In this document: piece after piece, positions 1,732 to 24,270 of the stretch
Layout of the letters: each line of letters starts with the position of its first letter
Position numbering within the stretch: position 1 is the stretch's first letter
Virus record (IMG/VR): IMGVR_UViG_3300010885_020433
Span: 1-24,270 of that record
Source of the DNA: a virus
DNA length: 24,270 nucleotides
Strand: one strand, 5' to 3'
The notes under the pieces: generated by a model
Told to the model about the DNA's origin: nothing
Seen by the model: the letters and a program-made list of their open reading frames with translations, nothing else
Database searches by the model: none
Translations under genes and position numbers: made by a program

Positions 1732-1812
1732 CTACAGATCTTTCTCAAAATAAATAGCAGCAACTATTGCTATGCCTAACAATACACCTAAAATGCTAAC
1801 AATAGTTAACAC
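1732..1812 (-). CDS. 26-residue single-span membrane peptide (possible holin-like or accessory lysis peptide)
   Basis: A GTG-started micro-ORF read directly from the sequence. It starts inside the last codons of the primase gene and stops just before the lysin gene. Its product is almost wholly one hydrophobic helix (LTIVSILGVLLGIAIVAAIY) followed by a short charged tail ending FEKDL. An AGAGG-type ribosome site lies about six bases before the GTG, and its stop codon TAG forms part of the AGGAG site of the lysin gene, so the two look translationally coupled. This position suggests a lysis partner such as a minimal holin. Known holins are usually longer, so the function is inference. It is too short to be certain that it is a gene. 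Confidence 0.5.
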   Translation of the reverse strand: MLTIVSILGVLLGIAIVAAIYFEKDL

Positions 1813-2762
1813 GATAAACCTCTTACCCCATACAAAATAGCATGCTTTGCTGAGGCTACACCCTGTCTAATTTCAAACCTACTCATCCCGCCAATGTCTT
1901 TCATATCTGTATGTGAGTAATCAAAAAACCAAGCATCTTTTCCTTTTTTTAACAGATACTCAACCATTTTTTTGGATGCGGATAGTCCGGCATCATCGTT
2001 ATCTAAAGCAAAAATAACTCGGTCAGCGCCCATAATGTAAAACAATTGTTCGCTAGAAACCATGGATCCGTAAATAGCAACCCCCCCAGTAATACCTACT
2101 GACTCAAGCCGAACAACATCTAATGGAGACTCCACAACTATCATATCTCCTCCAGGATACTGTTGGTAGCCATACAAAGACATACTCTTTTTTACACCTG
2201 CTGGGTAGTTATTAAAGTATCTAGTTGTGTGACCTTTTTCTTGCCAGCCTAAAAGCTTTCCAGTTTTAATTTGACGCTGAGGAATTATCCAATTAGATCC
2301 TTTTGCACTCCACAAAAGCTGGTGCACATCTGCGGCCTCTTGCGTGAGGCCTCTAGAGCGTAATGCTGGCAAGGGTGGAGCAGAAAAAGCCGCTAAAGAT
2401 GCCTCTGAAATGTAAACCAAATCTTCAAATACTTCTTTAGGTTTAAATAAAGCTTTCTCTACAATGGTTAAAAGGTCTCCGCCTTTGTTAATCCATGAGT
2501 GCGCTTGATCTAAGTCGTAAGACCCGTCTGCTAACCTAAACTCATTTATCTTAGCGACTAGGAGAGACAGGTTCCCTTTAAATTGGCATGAGAAACAAAT
2601 GTGAGCACCCGTATCAGCATTGATGTACCAAGACGGATTTTTGTCCACCTTACCTGTGCGCTCTTCGTGTGCAGGACAAAGGCCTTGGACTTCGTTCCCT
2701 GTAATACTGGTGTGCTCAATACCTAAACTATCTAGGATATCTACCATCTCGTCGGGGGTCAC
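1806..2762 (-). CDS. DNA primase with zinc-binding and Toprim domains
   Basis: A 318-residue DnaG-type primase that would make RNA primers at the phage replication fork together with the DnaB-like helicase encoded just upstream. Seen: an N-terminal CHC2-type zinc site with Cys29 and His32 in CPAH and Cys56 and Cys59 in CFSC; and a Toprim domain with the glutamate motif VVESPLD (Glu211), a YGSM turn, and the metal-binding DNDD (254-257). It is shorter than bacterial DnaG and lacks the C-terminal helicase-binding domain, as is common for phage primases. The start is a GTG that overlaps the helicase stop (GTGA), with GGAGG four bases upstream. The functional call is secure from the two motif sets together. 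Confidence 0.92.
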   Translation of the reverse strand: MTPDEMVDILDSLGIEHTSITGNEVQGLCPAHEERTGKVDKNPSWYINADTGAHICFSCQFKGNLSLLVAKINEFRLADGSYDLDQAHSWINKGGDLLTIVEKALFKPKEVFEDLVYISEASLAAFSAPPLPALRSRGLTQEAADVHQLLWSAKGSNWIIPQRQIKTGKLLGWQEKGHTTRYFNNYPAGVKKSMSLYGYQQYPGGDMIVVESPLDVVRLESVGITGGVAIYGSMVSSEQLFYIMGADRVIFALDNDDAGLSASKKMVEYLLKKGKDAWFFDYSHTDMKDIGGMSRFEIRQGVASAKHAILYGVRGLSC

Positions 2763-3988
2763 ATGTCCTCCGCAGTAATCTCTCGGAAGTTACCGGTATT
2801 CCAATCCCAAACTAATGAGACTTCCATAGGGCTACAGTTACGACCAGCAAGAAGTTTTAAAACGCGTGTGTCTTCAACCGCATCGTCTTCGCGCTGCAGG
2901 GCAAGCAAAACGTCAGCATCCTGGAAAAAGGAAGAGGAGTAACCGATAGAGTCAGCGGTAACTTGACCTTTACGCATCTTCCACTCAAGAGCCTGTGTAG
3001 AAATGATGATAGGGATCTGGTACTTCTGGGCTAAGCGCTTCATTGAGCGAGTAATGTTAGTCAAAGCAAGAGCGGTGTTGGCTTCGCCAGACTGCTCATC
3101 AATCATCAAATAAGTACCATCAACAAAAAGAACATCTGGTTGAAGTAACTGAACCTTGTTCGCTAGCCCTGAAATAGTCGACGCACTAGAAGACTCGCTA
3201 AGCCAAAACTTATGCTTCATGGTAGCCATACCTCTGAGCTTGGCTTGATACCTAATCTCTTCATCTCGCGTAAGGGTGCCAGTAGTTAATCGGTGATGGG
3301 ACATACGCGCCCTCATGGCGTCGTAACGATTGATCTGTTCCTGATTGCTCATCTCAAAAGATTGAAATACTGGAACAGCGCCGTTCATATGAATGTTGTG
3401 CGCCATTTGCAAAGCAAGAGTAGATTTACCAGTTTTAGGTGGAGCCACAATTACAATCAGTTGACCTTTTTGAATACCGCTGGTGGCAGCATCTAGGCTT
3501 TTAAATCCGGTAGCAAGACCGCGCAAACCGTTCGGCAAGTTCTTTCGTTCTACGTACTCATCCCAACGACGCTCCGCTTCAAACGTAATGTCAACGTCAG
3601 TTACGGATGTTAAGCCGTCTTCCTCAAGCCTAGCCAAAGTCTTCTGCATTACCATCATGGCAGCTTCATGGTTGCCAGAGTCACTAACAGTAAGAGCAGC
3701 GCTGTGAATAGCAGAGTTAATGATGGATGCGCGTTTTGCCTCAATCAACTTATCCACTAAATAGTCAAGGTTGTCTGTGGAATCCGTAAACTCGTACGTA
3801 GGGAAGTTGTCCCTAATTATTTGCAAAGTAGGGCACTCACCATAGTTAGTGTGGTGATCCCTAACGTATTCCCAAAGTCTTTTTTCTGAGTCGTTACTAA
3901 ACCAAGATGAAGTAACCCCTCGCATAAACAGGGGAGTAAAGTTTTTGTCTTGCAGTGCTCGGCTTAGTAGTCGTTTTTCGTAGTCCAT
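2759..3988 (-). CDS. DnaB-like replicative DNA helicase
   Basis: A 409-residue hexameric helicase of the DnaB/RecA superfamily (SF4), expected to unwind the fork. Seen: an alpha-helical N-terminal domain (about 1-110), a linker, then the RecA-like domain with Walker A PPKTGKST (183-190), FEMS (211-214, a DnaB helicase signature), Walker B VLFVD (286-290), ISTQ (329-332, the usual sensor position) and GRN near 382, in the place of the arginine-finger region. The usual VDYLQLM segment reads VDGTYLM here. AAGGGG five bases before the ATG overlaps the stop region of the preceding gene. The DnaC-like loader, initiator candidate and primase are encoded in the same operon, giving a nearly self-contained initiation set. 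Confidence 0.95.
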   Translation of the reverse strand: MDYEKRLLSRALQDKNFTPLFMRGVTSSWFSNDSEKRLWEYVRDHHTNYGECPTLQIIRDNFPTYEFTDSTDNLDYLVDKLIEAKRASIINSAIHSAALTVSDSGNHEAAMMVMQKTLARLEEDGLTSVTDVDITFEAERRWDEYVERKNLPNGLRGLATGFKSLDAATSGIQKGQLIVIVAPPKTGKSTLALQMAHNIHMNGAVPVFQSFEMSNQEQINRYDAMRARMSHHRLTTGTLTRDEEIRYQAKLRGMATMKHKFWLSESSSASTISGLANKVQLLQPDVLFVDGTYLMIDEQSGEANTALALTNITRSMKRLAQKYQIPIIISTQALEWKMRKGQVTADSIGYSSSFFQDADVLLALQREDDAVEDTRVLKLLAGRNCSPMEVSLVWDWNTGNFREITAEDM

Positions 3989-4701: not shown

Positions 4702-5391
4702 TTATTTCCGCAAATCCCCTCGTATAGATTCTAACTCAATTGTGACAAAAGCTTCGTGTATAAAGGAACCGGTTGCTGATCCATAAACGGATTCCCAAGC
4801 ATCTACTGGAAGATTAGTGGTCACAATAGTAGGAAGACCTAGATTAAAACGAGTACGCAGTACGTGATGAAGCATGGTCTTTTGCCAGCCTGATCCGGAG
4901 TTGTGCTCCTTGCCAACATCATCAATGATTAGTGCCCTGATGTTGTAGGCATCGTCTGGGCACTCTCCATGAATACCTAAAAACAAGCGCTCCTGCTCGT
5001 CGGTGCCGCCACTAATGAGTTCGCCTTTTAACTCAATCAAAGAATTAAAAGTAATGAAATAACAAGGCTTGATCAGCGATCGGTTCTCTGCAACGCAAAA
5101 AGCCTCAAGAGGGTAATCCCTTAGCATGGCTTGAATGACAGAAAGAGCCAGCGTAGTTTTACCGTGACCAGGCTCACCTACAAGAAGTAGACCTTTTCCA
5201 CAAGTAGGCTGACCATCTGCACGGATTACGTCCCCATTTTTTACTTTAGCTATCCACTTCTTAATGATCTTTAAATCATCGGAAGTAACTTCAGTGCAAT
5301 CTTCAAGCTCCCAACCTAGACGAGCACGTGGGATTCCAGCGGCCTGAACCCATGTCTTTCTTCTAATAGGCAGGTCATCAACGCTAAACAT
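4702..5391 (-). CDS. DnaC-like AAA+ helicase loader
   Basis: A 229-residue AAA+ ATPase of the DnaC/IstB type, expected to load the DnaB-like helicase onto melted origin DNA. Seen: Walker A GEPGHGKT (72-79), Walker B ALIIDDVG (153-160), a sensor-1-type TTN (191-193), and an arginine near the C-terminus (ESIRGDL). An upstream in-frame start at 5529 would add 46 residues, but that stretch is the out-of-frame reading of the CxCxxCxC gene and is not protein-like. The ATG at 5391, overlapping that gene's stop by a few bases and preceded by GCGGGG, gives the normal length for the family. Together with the winged-helix gene upstream, it forms an initiator-loader pair comparable to lambda O and P. Confidence 0.9.
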   Translation of the reverse strand: MFSVDDLPIRRKTWVQAAGIPRARLGWELEDCTEVTSDDLKIIKKWIAKVKNGDVIRADGQPTCGKGLLLVGEPGHGKTTLALSVIQAMLRDYPLEAFCVAENRSLIKPCYFITFNSLIELKGELISGGTDEQERLFLGIHGECPDDAYNIRALIIDDVGKEHNSGSGWQKTMLHHVLRTRFNLGLPTIVTTNLPVDAWESVYGSATGSFIHEAFVTIELESIRGDLRK

Positions 5392-5575
5392 CTTTAGCCC
5401 CGCATACGCAGTTTCCGCAACCGCACCCACCATCCTCAGTGTCCTCAAGGGCTTGAATGTAAGCAATTCTTTCACGCATACGCTCAATAGTTTCTCTAGT
5501 AATACCGGCTTCTCTGTAAGCCTTTTCAACTTCAGTAACCTGACTCAACTCAAATTCACGACTTATGTCACTCAT
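5384..5575 (-). CDS. Small protein with C-terminal CxCxxCxC cluster
   Basis: A 63-residue protein: a charged helical N-terminal two-thirds (about 10-45, rich in Glu and Arg) and a glycine/cysteine tail with Cys51, Cys53, Cys56 and Cys58 (GGCGCGNCVCG). Four closely spaced cysteines suggest metal binding, although no His or distant Cys completes a classical zinc finger. Its ATG overlaps the end of the winged-helix gene and its stop overlaps the loader ATG, so it sits between initiator and loader in a coupled chain. I do not recognise a named family. The alternative view is that this stretch is the N-terminus of the loader in another frame, but the codon-like composition and junction geometry favour a separate gene. 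Confidence 0.7.
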   Translation of the reverse strand: MSDISREFELSQVTEVEKAYREAGITRETIERMRERIAYIQALEDTEDGGCGCGNCVCGAKDV

Positions 5576-6464
5576 CTTCTAACCATTTCTGTGATTGTTT
5601 GGCTTGCGTAGATGCAAGTTCTTTTTGTGTATCTGTACGTAGCATAGCATTCGCCTGTTCGTGGAAAAAAGCAAATTGCTTAATGAAAGTTCGCCAAAGC
5701 TTTTCTGCATTAGTGAACTTGTCATGAGAAATACTTCTGAAAAATAGATCCACCATCAAGTATTCGACCTCACCATTGGTGGAGTAAATCTTTCTAGCAT
5801 GGCTAAGAGCCGAAATAAAATTAGTCTTACCAACTTGCCAAGGTGGGATGTTCCATAGATCCCTAACTCTGTCAGAGAACTCATACGCAATGTCAGTAGA
5901 CGTCCATTTTGTCAGATGCTTTTTTCGACCACGGATAGCCTGGCGAACAGCGGCCTTGGCTTCTTTCTGAGCAATGACATCCTGCTGGGCACGAGCTTTT
6001 TGCTCAGCAATTTCCTGCTCGTAATCATCTGTTCCGGTGCTATCAAAAATACCTTCCCAACCACCCATATTCATGCCCTCATTTATCTCAGATTCCACGT
6101 GTCGGAGGGTGTCTTTTTTACCCTCCGACTCTTGTTTACTATTTAGTATATTTATATATTTAGTATTAAACTGCTGAATCAGACTGTCGGAAAATCCGAC
6201 CGCTGCAGAGGTCGGAAAATCAAACCCTATGAGCATCTGTAGATAGTCTCTTCCATGCTGAGTTATCTCAACCTCGTAGTTGTATTGCTGACCTACCTTG
6301 TCACGCCCTCTGCGCAAATATCCAGCGTTTTCTAGCTCACGGGTAGTCTCATCCCAATAATGCTTCCCACCGTGCTTAAAGTGGCTCTGTAGGGCTTCTC
6401 TAGTGGGTCGTACGTCTTGGAATACACATGCAAAAAGAGCGCCCAAGGCCCTAGGTGAAATCAT
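5568..6464 (-). CDS. Winged-helix replication-initiator candidate (lambda O / DnaD-like organisation)
   Basis: A 298-residue protein with an N-terminal winged-helix-turn-helix domain (about 5-80: a helix with TREALQSHF, a recognition-like helix YWDETTRELENAGYL, then a wing with RRGRDKVGQQYNYEVEITQHG), a low-complexity linker (about 85-145), a charged coiled-coil stretch (149-178), and a C-terminal helical domain (about 185-275). The DNA encoding the linker carries the GTCGGA repeat cluster and AT-rich tract described separately. A helicase loader gene follows. This arrangement (DNA-binding N-domain, origin inside the gene, C-domain for partner contact) matches the lambda O plan, so I infer a replication initiator. 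A transcription-regulator role is the alternative. Start ATG overlaps the upstream stop as ATGA. Confidence 0.8.
   Translation of the reverse strand: MISPRALGALFACVFQDVRPTREALQSHFKHGGKHYWDETTRELENAGYLRRGRDKVGQQYNYEVEITQHGRDYLQMLIGFDFPTSAAVGFSDSLIQQFNTKYINILNSKQESEGKKDTLRHVESEINEGMNMGGWEGIFDSTGTDDYEQEIAEQKARAQQDVIAQKEAKAAVRQAIRGRKKHLTKWTSTDIAYEFSDRVRDLWNIPPWQVGKTNFISALSHARKIYSTNGEVEYLMVDLFFRSISHDKFTNAEKLWRTFIKQFAFFHEQANAMLRTDTQKELASTQAKQSQKWLEDE
6101..6129. repeat. Perfect 9-bp inverted repeat with GTCGGA arms
   Basis: GTCGGAGGG (6101-6109) and its exact reverse complement CCCTCCGAC (6121-6129) flank an 11-base T-rich spacer. No U-tract follows the stem on either strand, so it is a poor terminator. 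It reads more naturally as a paired protein-binding site or origin hairpin. Confidence 0.8.
6141..6166. repeat. Direct repeat ATTTAGTAT in the AT-rich tract
   Basis: ATTTAGTAT occurs at 6141-6149 and again at 6158-6166, a 17-base period, inside the AT-rich stretch. Repeated AT-rich units are typical of DNA unwinding elements. Confidence 0.65.
6186..6221. repeat. Palindrome and direct repeat of GTCGGAAAATC
   Basis: GTCGGA-AAA-TCCGAC (6186-6200) is a perfect 6-bp-arm palindrome. Its left part, GTCGGAAAATC, recurs at 6211-6221, exactly 25 bases downstream, which is about 2.4 helical turns. These are the second group of iteron-like elements. Confidence 0.8.
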
Positions 6465-7078
6465 TTACGCAAAACTTTCTTAAGTTCTTTGGCCAGTTCT
6501 TCAGCAAAGATCTTTGCTACAGCCTGAATGGCAGCGTAAAGAGGGTCTTCATAAATGTCCTCATCTTCAAATTCCTCATCCTCAACAGCTTCTTCAGCCT
6601 CTACTTTTTCGGCTTCCGAAAGTTCTTCTTGTTCAGGTATGATTGGGACCTCAGTTTCCTTGAGACCGTCTACCGAAATAATGTCTAGAAGACCATTAGT
6701 AAGATCTTTAGCAGTAACGCCAAACTCACTAGCAATAGCCAATACGTCCCGACAAACGCTGTCTTCGTCGTTCCATAGTAAAAGGATGTCCAAATCAGAT
6801 CCGTATTTTTTACAGGCTTCTCTGATAGGGGAGTCCACAATAGTTTTTGTAAACGATGAGTCTAAGTTTGCAATACGAGCATCTTTAGTGGCAAGGACTT
6901 CAACAGGTCTATCTTTGTCGGCAGCGTACTGGGAAACCCAAACTTGCCCCTCAGATGTGTTTTCAAAGACGGCTAGTACAGTCGTAACTCCGTCTTTTAA
7001 GTAGTAATAGTCGTCGATCAACGCTTCGACGTTAGCTCTACTGGTAACTCCGTTACCTGCAATAAGAATGTATCTCAT
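6461..7078 (-). CDS. Rossmann-like protein with acidic tail, first gene of the replication operon
   Basis: A 205-residue protein, first in the early operon. The N-terminal half (1-140) looks like a Rossmann-type alpha/beta fold starting MRYILIAGNGVTSRANVEAL, with later strands TVLAVFEN, VEVLAT, LDILLLW and IISVDG. It is followed by a strongly acidic linker (about 149-178, mostly Glu/Asp) and an amphipathic basic C-terminal helix ending ELKKVLRK. The GNG turn is compatible with nucleotide binding, but no family-defining motif is visible, so I leave the function open. The ATG has AAGGAG five bases upstream (7084-7089) and a candidate promoter beyond it. The acidic tail could mimic DNA or dock another replication protein; that is speculation. 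Confidence 0.8.
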   Translation of the reverse strand: MRYILIAGNGVTSRANVEALIDDYYYLKDGVTTVLAVFENTSEGQVWVSQYAADKDRPVEVLATKDARIANLDSSFTKTIVDSPIREACKKYGSDLDILLLWNDEDSVCRDVLAIASEFGVTAKDLTNGLLDIISVDGLKETEVPIIPEQEELSEAEKVEAEEAVEDEEFEDEDIYEDPLYAAIQAVAKIFAEELAKELKKVLRK

Positions 7079-23220: not shown

Positions 23221-23847
23221 TTAGAGCCGAGATCCAATCCAACCAATAACGTTTACAGTCACAGCGTTACCCATCTGCTTGTAGCGGTGAGAGTCTGCCT
23301 GACCTTCTGTCCATCCATCAGGAAAGCCTTGTAGGCGTTCACACTCGGTTGGAGTTAGCCGTCGCACAACAGCTGGAGGCGCATCATCTGCCACAAAAGT
23401 CTGGGCGTGATGTGATTGAACAGATGGCTGGAGAGATTGTAGTGCTCTCGCCGTTTCAATCTCAGTTGCTGAGAAGTTATCTGCCTTTGCGTCTTCACGA
23501 ATGCTGTAAGCCACTGCTTGGCTTCCGGTTTGATCAAGCGTATAACTAGGATCACTTTCACTACCTACGCCTAAACCGTTCTGGTTCTTTTCCATTTCTC
23601 TACCATCCTGGATTGGGAATACGTAAGGCACGTTTCCTCCACCTGTTCCCCAGCGGCTAATAACCGTCTGGCTAATATCATCTTCATAAATACGTACGTC
23701 ACCAACCCGTGTACCGTCAATGATTAGCACGGTAGCACGAGTCTCTGTGGCGTTATCGAATACGTTCAATGTAGGGGTCACCTCTCCAGCAATCCATGTT
23801 TCATAATCAGTATCGCTTTGCGCTCTACGACTCTTGGTGAACCACAA
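23221..23847 (-). CDS. C5-cytosine DNA methyltransferase, C-terminal fragment after a frameshift
   Basis: The open frame holds the end of a Dcm-type cytosine-5 methyltransferase. Seen: a variable target-recognition-like region with GDVRIYEDDISQTV and WGTGGGNVPYVFP, then motif IX RRLTPTECERLQGFPDGW (near 162-179) and motif X RYKQMGNAVTVNVIGWIG (188-205). The fragment has no credible start: its first codons (TTG, then WFTKSRRAQ) overlap the other frame, and homologous sequence clearly begins around SDTDYETWIAGEVTPTLNVF. It is therefore best read as the 3' part of one gene whose upstream part is in the other frame (23825-24270). Such enzymes protect phage DNA against host restriction. The terminator follows. 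Confidence 0.85.
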   Translation of the reverse strand: MWFTKSRRAQSDTDYETWIAGEVTPTLNVFDNATETRATVLIIDGTRVGDVRIYEDDISQTVISRWGTGGGNVPYVFPIQDGREMEKNQNGLGVGSESDPSYTLDQTGSQAVAYSIREDAKADNFSATEIETARALQSLQPSVQSHHAQTFVADDAPPAVVRRLTPTECERLQGFPDGWTEGQADSHRYKQMGNAVTVNVIGWIGSRL

Positions 23848-24270
23848 TGTCAGTCACATCCTTGTAGTCACGAGCCTTTAACGCACTGGCTTTTTGATCC
23901 ATTTCGTAGTCACCAAAACCACGCATACGGGCGACTAGGTTGCCCTCAGGATCTTGGATTACAATCTTGTTTTCCTCAACCTGTTGTTGCTGTGGGAACT
24001 TGTGATCGCTAGCGCACAAGGCGCCAACTAGATCGGTTCCGACCACTCCCCTGCGACCTGCTCCAATAATGGGAGTATGACCACCGCCCATTCCCATAGC
24101 CTCAGTAAGGGTGGGGCTAAGGTCTACTCTGATAGAGGCGTTGGGACGTTGTCCACCGAGAACTCCGACCCCGCTACCTGCTCCAGTGCTGTCTGCAACT
24201 GAACCGGTAGCGTCTTGCCCCTGCGGTTCGCCCTGCGAAGAATCCCCTGCGCTGCTTTCGCACTCAGCGA
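23825..24270 (-). CDS. C5-cytosine DNA methyltransferase, middle fragment, cut by window edge
   Basis: The frame is open from the window end to a TAG at 23825. It carries a Gly/Ser/Asp-rich linker (QGEPQGQDATGSVADS region), then ASIRVDLSPTLTEAMGMGGG, a GALCASDHK segment, and a final KASALKARDYKDVTDIVV. The 'DLSPTLTEAMG' and 'ASALKARDYKD' repeats are characteristic of the variable region before motif IX in phage Dcm-type enzymes. The catalytic Pro-Cys motif lies outside the window. It ends in HQES and the enzyme continues in a different frame (23221-23847). An internal ATG at 24097 is not the true start because the similarity extends upstream of it. The upstream end is markedly GC-rich (about 60-63% over 24121-24240). 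Confidence 0.8.
   Translation of the reverse strand, partial: AECESSAGDSSQGEPQGQDATGSVADSTGAGSGVGVLGGQRPNASIRVDLSPTLTEAMGMGGGHTPIIGAGRRGVVGTDLVGALCASDHKFPQQQQVEENKIVIQDPEGNLVARMRGFGDYEMDQKASALKARDYKDVTDIVVHQES

Follow-up and report, generated by a model that had tools for sequence, protein, structure and literature searches.

A very probable lambda-type replication origin inside the winged-helix initiator gene of an uncultivated tailed phage

The DNA analysed here (the window) is a complete virus record of 24,270 bases, IMGVR_UViG_3300010885_020433, which carries contractile-tail genes for sheath, tube and baseplate. Positions 6101-6225 of the window very probably constitute a lambda-type replication origin located inside the gene for a winged-helix initiator. 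We consider it likely that the phage replicates from DNA encoding the disordered linker of its own initiator, and that a hairpin beyond an AT-rich tract acts there as a DNA structure. The architecture, its conservation, the pairing of the hairpin through sequence change and a step in GC skew are directly supported. A probable origin is defined for a family of uncultivated tailed phages whose initiator falls within neither of the Pfam families defining lambda O and RepA_N.

The replication module lies on the minus strand and comprises genes for the initiator, a 63-residue open reading frame (ORF), a DnaC-like loader, a SWIM-like ORF, an ORF of unknown nature, a DnaB-like helicase and a Toprim primase. 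The initiator gene (5568-6464, minus strand) encodes 298 amino acids and belongs to an aligned family of relatives in which the loader module is directly downstream. The loader (4702-5529, minus strand) matched PHROG 50 at 2e-25 and is 61-66% identical to its relatives; its alignment with them begins at about residue 46, so that the true start may be later than annotated. The preliminary description had recognised this loader correctly but had made it the immediate neighbour of the initiator, whereas the 63-residue ORF (5384-5575, minus strand), which has positional counterparts in L001 and L002, separates the two. The replicative helicase (2759-3988, minus strand) matched PF03796 at 4e-32 and PHROG 19 at 1e-61, and the primase (1806-2762, minus strand), with CHC2 zinc finger and Toprim domains, matched PF01807, PF13155 and PHROG 47 (2e-36). 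The features of lambda-type architecture, namely an origin between the winged helix and the C-terminal domain, several dyad iterons, an adjoining AT-rich tract and a nearby loader, were all found, and the earlier proposal of a lambda-like origin within the gene, in the linker DNA of a winged-helix initiator with loader, helicase and primase adjacent, was upheld. Elsewhere in the window (23221-24097, minus strand), two overlapping ORFs, judged by eye, resemble the end of a cytosine-5 DNA methyltransferase (LTPTECERLQGFPDGW...) and the part preceding it.

AlphaFold2 predicted an N-terminal winged-helix domain at residues 1-83 of the initiator (6216-6464, minus strand; pLDDT approximately 90), for which fold matches were of the MarR/PadR type (Z 9.5, 2.5 Å over 75 residues). 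Residues 82-145 (6030-6221, minus strand), whose DNA holds the origin, form a predicted disordered linker with a pLDDT of <50 and reduced synonymous change between relatives. The C-terminal domain (5571-5927, minus strand), well conserved in the alignment of relatives, was modelled as helical with a pLDDT of 79.6; it is probably the part that contacts the loader or helicase, as we infer, and its fold search gave no clear match (best Z 6.4). Modelling run on 24 relatives likewise yielded a confident winged helix, a disordered linker and a helical C-terminal domain. The repeat cluster encodes approximately residues 80-121, within the predicted disordered stretch, which agrees with its earlier placement in the DNA for a linker between the two domains. 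No Pfam match of the window initiator to Phage_rep_O (PF04492) or RepA_N (PF06970) was found up to E = 1, and none of 24 relatives matched either family at 0.1; the positive controls for RepA_N, L231, L237, L248 and L265, matched at 1e-20 to 1e-28. This lack of a family match is at the level of sequence, and a relation in fold to Phage_rep_O or RepA_N may exist. Searches with the initiator returned only weak matches, at chance level, in annotated phages and no match in cellular genomes.

The hexamer GTCGGA occurs at 6101 (+), 6124 (-), 6186 (+), 6195 (-) and 6211 (+), and 11 times over the whole window, compared with 4.9 expected from shuffles. In synonymous-codon shuffles, which preserve the protein and codon use, at least five copies in the gene arose in 1 of 2000 cases, and 31 of 2000 contained some hexamer or other at least five times within 121 bases. 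The five copies in 121 bases that had been pointed out are therefore present, but their bare number is less striking than it had seemed. Nor do they form a single iteron set, as had been supposed: the right-hand hairpin stems in relatives lack GTCGGA, which marks the hairpin as a separate element conserved in shape. The copies are split between two elements, a pair of dyad iterons and one hairpin beyond the AT-rich tract. Iteron 1 (6211-6225; GTTTGATTTTCCGAC on the coding strand) is an imperfect dyad and a direct repeat of 6186-6201 at a spacing of 25 bases. Iteron 2 (6186-6200) is the only perfect dyad of the two, a 15-bp sequence, GTCGGATTTTCCGAC, that is also present in relatives. Both the palindrome and the direct repeat 25 bases further, as first described, were recovered by repeat analysis.

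In the direction of the gene, the imperfect iteron (6225-6211) is followed by the perfect iteron (6200-6186), the AT tract (6169-6130), with AGTAAA near its end, and the hairpin (6129-6101). The order is thus iterons, AT tract, hairpin, as in lambda, and not paired iterons flanking an AT core as initially thought. The AT tract (6130-6169), a probable unwinding element, contains 35 A/T among its 40 bases and TATTTAGTAT twice, so that both its five G/C bases and its internal repeat had been given correctly. A 46-base tract ending in AGTAAA lies at the 99th percentile of A/T content within the gene. The AGTAAA motif itself (6135-6140, minus strand; 5'-AGTAAA-3' on the coding strand) contains a Ser codon that is always AGT in the first set of relatives, in which GTAA is retained where this Ser is replaced by Cys (L053-L055). 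The right-hand inverted repeat (6101-6129) reads GTCGGAGGGT-AAAAAAGAC-ACCCTCCGAC in the gene direction, with a 9-base spacer. It had been described with perfect arms of 9 bp; the repeat exists, with arms of 10 bp (GTCGGAGGGT / ACCCTCCGAC). Its predicted DNA fold has an energy of -10.4 kcal/mol (z -5.9), none of 400 synonymous shuffles gave an inverted repeat as good, and relatives have counterparts with different stems at the same position.

Starting from the loader and continuing with initiator profiles, the searches for relatives yielded more than 40 viral contigs. Among them, the perfect dyad GTCGGATTTTCCGAC is present in L029, L030, L032 and L281 and, with one change, in L033, L036 and L042; L033 and L036 contain two good copies of GTCGGGTTTTCCGAC, 49 bases apart. 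Variants of the dyad were observed in L040, L042 and L056, and a related word with GCGGG arms in L034 and L276. In the clade formed by L044, L049, L052 and L053, the linker is shorter and contains no recognisable iterons, and the AT tract and a hairpin are retained. In contigs of 31-93 kb, the dyad (at most one mismatch) was almost confined to the initiator gene.

The preliminary description had also suggested that GTCGGA might be a new iteron type. The iteron word is not new, because tandem arrays of GTCGGANNNTCCGAC occur in RepA_N and Phage_rep_O initiators and in other winged-helix proteins. We detected such arrays in 15 viral and 31 cellular stretches, among them the linkers of the RepA_N initiators L231, L237, L248 and L265, the linkers of the Phage_rep_O initiators L220 and L200 (the latter below the Pfam cut-off), and those of the other winged-helix proteins L153, L233 and L140. 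Single exact dyad matches in viral contigs were set aside as probably mostly due to chance, and only tandem arrays were used. A search of the openly accessible literature gave no match to the word. That winged-helix initiators of at least three kinds share one 15-bp iteron word suggests that the DNA-recognition module has been exchanged or has converged. Arrays of GTCGGANNNTCCGAC were also seen with a spacing of 50-51 bases in Cohnella lupini (L249, L255, L257) and Paenibacillus taihuensis (L242, L244, L250, L258, L262), and with a spacing of 41 bases in Chryseobacterium (L246, L253, L264) and an Alistipes MAG (L247, L256); these occupy several contigs, apparently outside initiator genes, and resemble dispersed chromosomal repeats. 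In L148 (7166-7228) and L139 (6730-6829), two or three dyad copies lie directly downstream of a small winged-helix-like ORF of 110 amino acids and are followed by an AT-rich stretch, an arrangement that perhaps represents an origin outside coding sequence.

The linker protein varies among the relatives in both length and sequence. Relatives with a protein identity of 27-40% have, at the corresponding position of the linker, an AT tract, a hairpin and dyads of either the same or a changed word. For 11 of 14 pairs, synonymous differences among unchanged codons were less frequent in the linker than elsewhere in the gene (p <0.05, best 6e-7), the pairs sharing sequences and hence not being independent. 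The alignment of relatives, which had been proposed as a check, thus revealed a DNA element that is kept while linker residues drift, together with depressed synonymous change.

Stems located directly after the AT tract in relatives include GTTACGAGGG, GTTCGCGAGG, TACGTGGGG, CACGGGG and CACCGAC, each with its exact complement. Given that MAFFT alignment of the hairpins misaligned the stems, we compared them by loop register; arm pairing extended on average to 3 of 7 positions across families, compared with 7 of 7 within a family. A rule that locates the 36 linker bases richest in A/T and takes the best inverted repeat closely following them was then applied to held-out, previously unseen relatives. 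In each of the 15 distinct complete linkers the AT tract was closely followed by a perfect inverted repeat, and additional stem sequences came to light (combined p of approximately 6e-16 against synonymous shuffles, with one failure, the linkerless fragment L312, included and phylogeny uncorrected; the relatives are not independent and the p-values ignore the tree). The stem list has 19 entries, a few of which (the weak clade and fragment L020) are chance, leaving approximately 15 true stems of 6-10 bp that are unrelated in sequence and span all three codon frames. Because such unrelated stems, in all three frames, occupy the same place, the hairpin is conserved by shape; nearly all relatives have a perfect inverted repeat directly behind the AT tract, and for most of them the comparison shows a hairpin next to the melting zone whose shape, not sequence, is preserved. 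The clade of L029-L033, L036 and L039 has weak hairpins at most (approximately 4-7 bp), and the element is therefore not universal. G-T pairs are absent from the stems, in part because exact arms were searched for. The dozens of relatives amount to a natural covariation experiment on a hairpin beside an unwinding tract.

The loops are also patterned, with triloops of the form GNA on one strand in seven of eight distinct stems; GNA loops make extremely stable DNA mini-hairpins (PMC4686876). The hairpin of the L014-L028 clade is CACCGAC[GGA or TCC]GTCGGTG, the loop being a triplet or its reverse complement, and GGA/TCC changes occurred at least twice on well-supported branches between close relatives. 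Folding or template switching of the stem in the course of replication would be expected to produce such a flip, the alternative being recombination between lineages. The switching within this clade looks as if the hairpin inverts.

Raw cumulative GC skew is confounded by gene orientation and composition, and we therefore used third codon positions of same-strand genes. The analysis covered ten contigs whose genes, up to 5 kb from the initiator gene in either direction, are all or nearly all co-oriented; in the window, one of the downstream bins had no usable genes. GC3 skew was lower upstream than downstream of the initiator gene in all ten, two of which, G009 and G010, are nearly the same phage. 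In every contig the step at the initiator gene ranked among the top 2-16% of positions, and in 7 of the 10 the linker was no more than 1.3 kb from the largest step. The skew check proposed earlier thus agrees with an origin at the initiator gene at a resolution of approximately 1 kb, with the switch usually placed slightly upstream of the linker, which it does not single out. Directly upstream of the initiator gene, on the minus strand, is an ORF of 205 amino acids (6461-7078) with a very acidic C-terminal part; this ORF or its vicinity tends to contain the largest GC3-skew step in several contigs.

The main rival explanation concerns the hairpin alone. Followed by the T-rich complement of AGTAAA, the hairpin might act on antisense transcripts as an intrinsic terminator, halting those that head for the origin and shielding the AT tract, the rest of the region still being an origin. 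A terminator scan marks 6101-6129 on the antisense strand, the antisense tails contain three to six T among their first eight bases, and for a terminator pairing would suffice with sequence left free. However, nearly all genes around the origin are co-oriented in the 10 contigs, which leaves no known antisense transcript, the tail often begins with G, GA or C and is interrupted, and neither the loop flip nor the GNA loops would be expected. We regard this explanation as unlikely. Still less probable is that the hairpin acts in the initiator mRNA, in control of translation or decay, and that the dyads, rather than being part of an origin, serve the initiator as an operator for autoregulation of its operon. 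The element does lie within coding sequence, and winged-helix proteins are often repressors, but a scan for promoter-like sites in the vicinity and a comparison with Rfam families were both negative. It is as DNA that GNA triloops have a documented stability (PMC4686876), and the AT tract, the neighbouring loader, the skew step and the match to the lambda and RepA_N origin plan would go unexplained. That the repeats are a functionless by-product of linker peptide composition or of mutation is barely credible: repeats are common in low-complexity linkers and the GGA/TCC flip is the kind of change made by template switching, which also makes palindromes, but synonymous shuffles rarely reach the observed inverted repeats, pairing stays while linker residues change, stems lie in different frames, and synonymous change is depressed in the linker.

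For an origin whose hairpin acts as DNA, we infer protein binding, melting and a role for the hairpin as follows. The N-terminal winged helix would bind the two dyad iterons (GTCGG-ATTTT-CCGAC) as dimers, and the resulting complex would melt the adjoining AT-rich tract. The C-terminal domain would recruit the DnaC-like loader, by which the phage DnaB helicase would be placed on the opened strands, to be followed by the phage primase. On opening of the tract, the inverted repeat beyond it would fold into a hairpin or cruciform, which most likely would mark or hold the bubble's edge so that the helicase can be loaded or priming can occur. More tentatively, lambda-type origins may have a general third element, a shape-kept hairpin beside the unwinding tract that is extruded as single-stranded or cruciform DNA on opening and guides the loading of the helicase, priming or the direction taken by the first fork; the right-hand 28-bp repeat of lambda would be one example.

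The window shares with lambda ori an origin placed where a winged-helix initiator gene (gene O in lambda) encodes the linker, dyad iterons with an A/T-rich centre, the order of iterons, 40-base AT tract and inverted repeat (39162-39189 in lambda), and a loader gene downstream. In lambda O, four dyad iterons of the form TCCCTC-AAAAC-GAGGGA precede the AT tract. A palindrome to the right of that tract is known from the early lambda literature. The lambda repeat, GTCAGAGAATTC-TGGC-GAATCCTCTGAC (28 bp), was equalled in 1 of 300 and 2 of 200 shuffles, and that of Salmonella phage SEN22, GTCCGAA-AGTG-TTCGGAC, in 2 of 200. Papers that describe the lambda iterons, AT tract and strand opening (PMC3349717, PMC7466680, PMC6022878) neither describe nor explain this right-hand repeat, which the shape-kept hairpin in relatives now makes testable. 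Repeats at the same position in HK446, Klebsiella phage 5, BUCT566 and PhiR30_1 were suggestive and individually not significant, and none beyond the AT tract was significant in the RepA_N genes checked; we therefore claim no universal hairpin rule. In contrast to lambda, the window initiator has no sequence match to Phage_rep_O, its iterons number two rather than four and have a different word, its loader is DnaC-like rather than lambda P, the phage encodes its own DnaB and primase, and the hairpin is perfect whereas that of lambda is imperfect. The lambda-O-family members L220 (whose annotated relatives are Acinetobacter phages) and L200 resemble the window in that their linkers, downstream of the winged helix, contain the same iteron word, in three copies, and then an AT-rich stretch, but they belong to a different protein family, and the right-hand inverted repeat is suggestive only in L200 (4 of 100 shuffles). 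In RepA_N plasmids, the origin lies in the part of rep that encodes the central linker, the protein sequence of which is dispensable (PMC5703833), and in the pSK41 type semi-palindromic iterons converge on or around a poly-A tract (PMC5703833, PMC7145576). The window initiator is not RepA_N by Pfam, and it belongs to a phage replisome module rather than to a plasmid-type replicon. The window and the pSK41-type replicons nevertheless both have an origin in linker-coding DNA and a winged-helix N-terminus, and several RepA_N genes carry the same dyad, GTCGGANNNTCCGAC, as the window.
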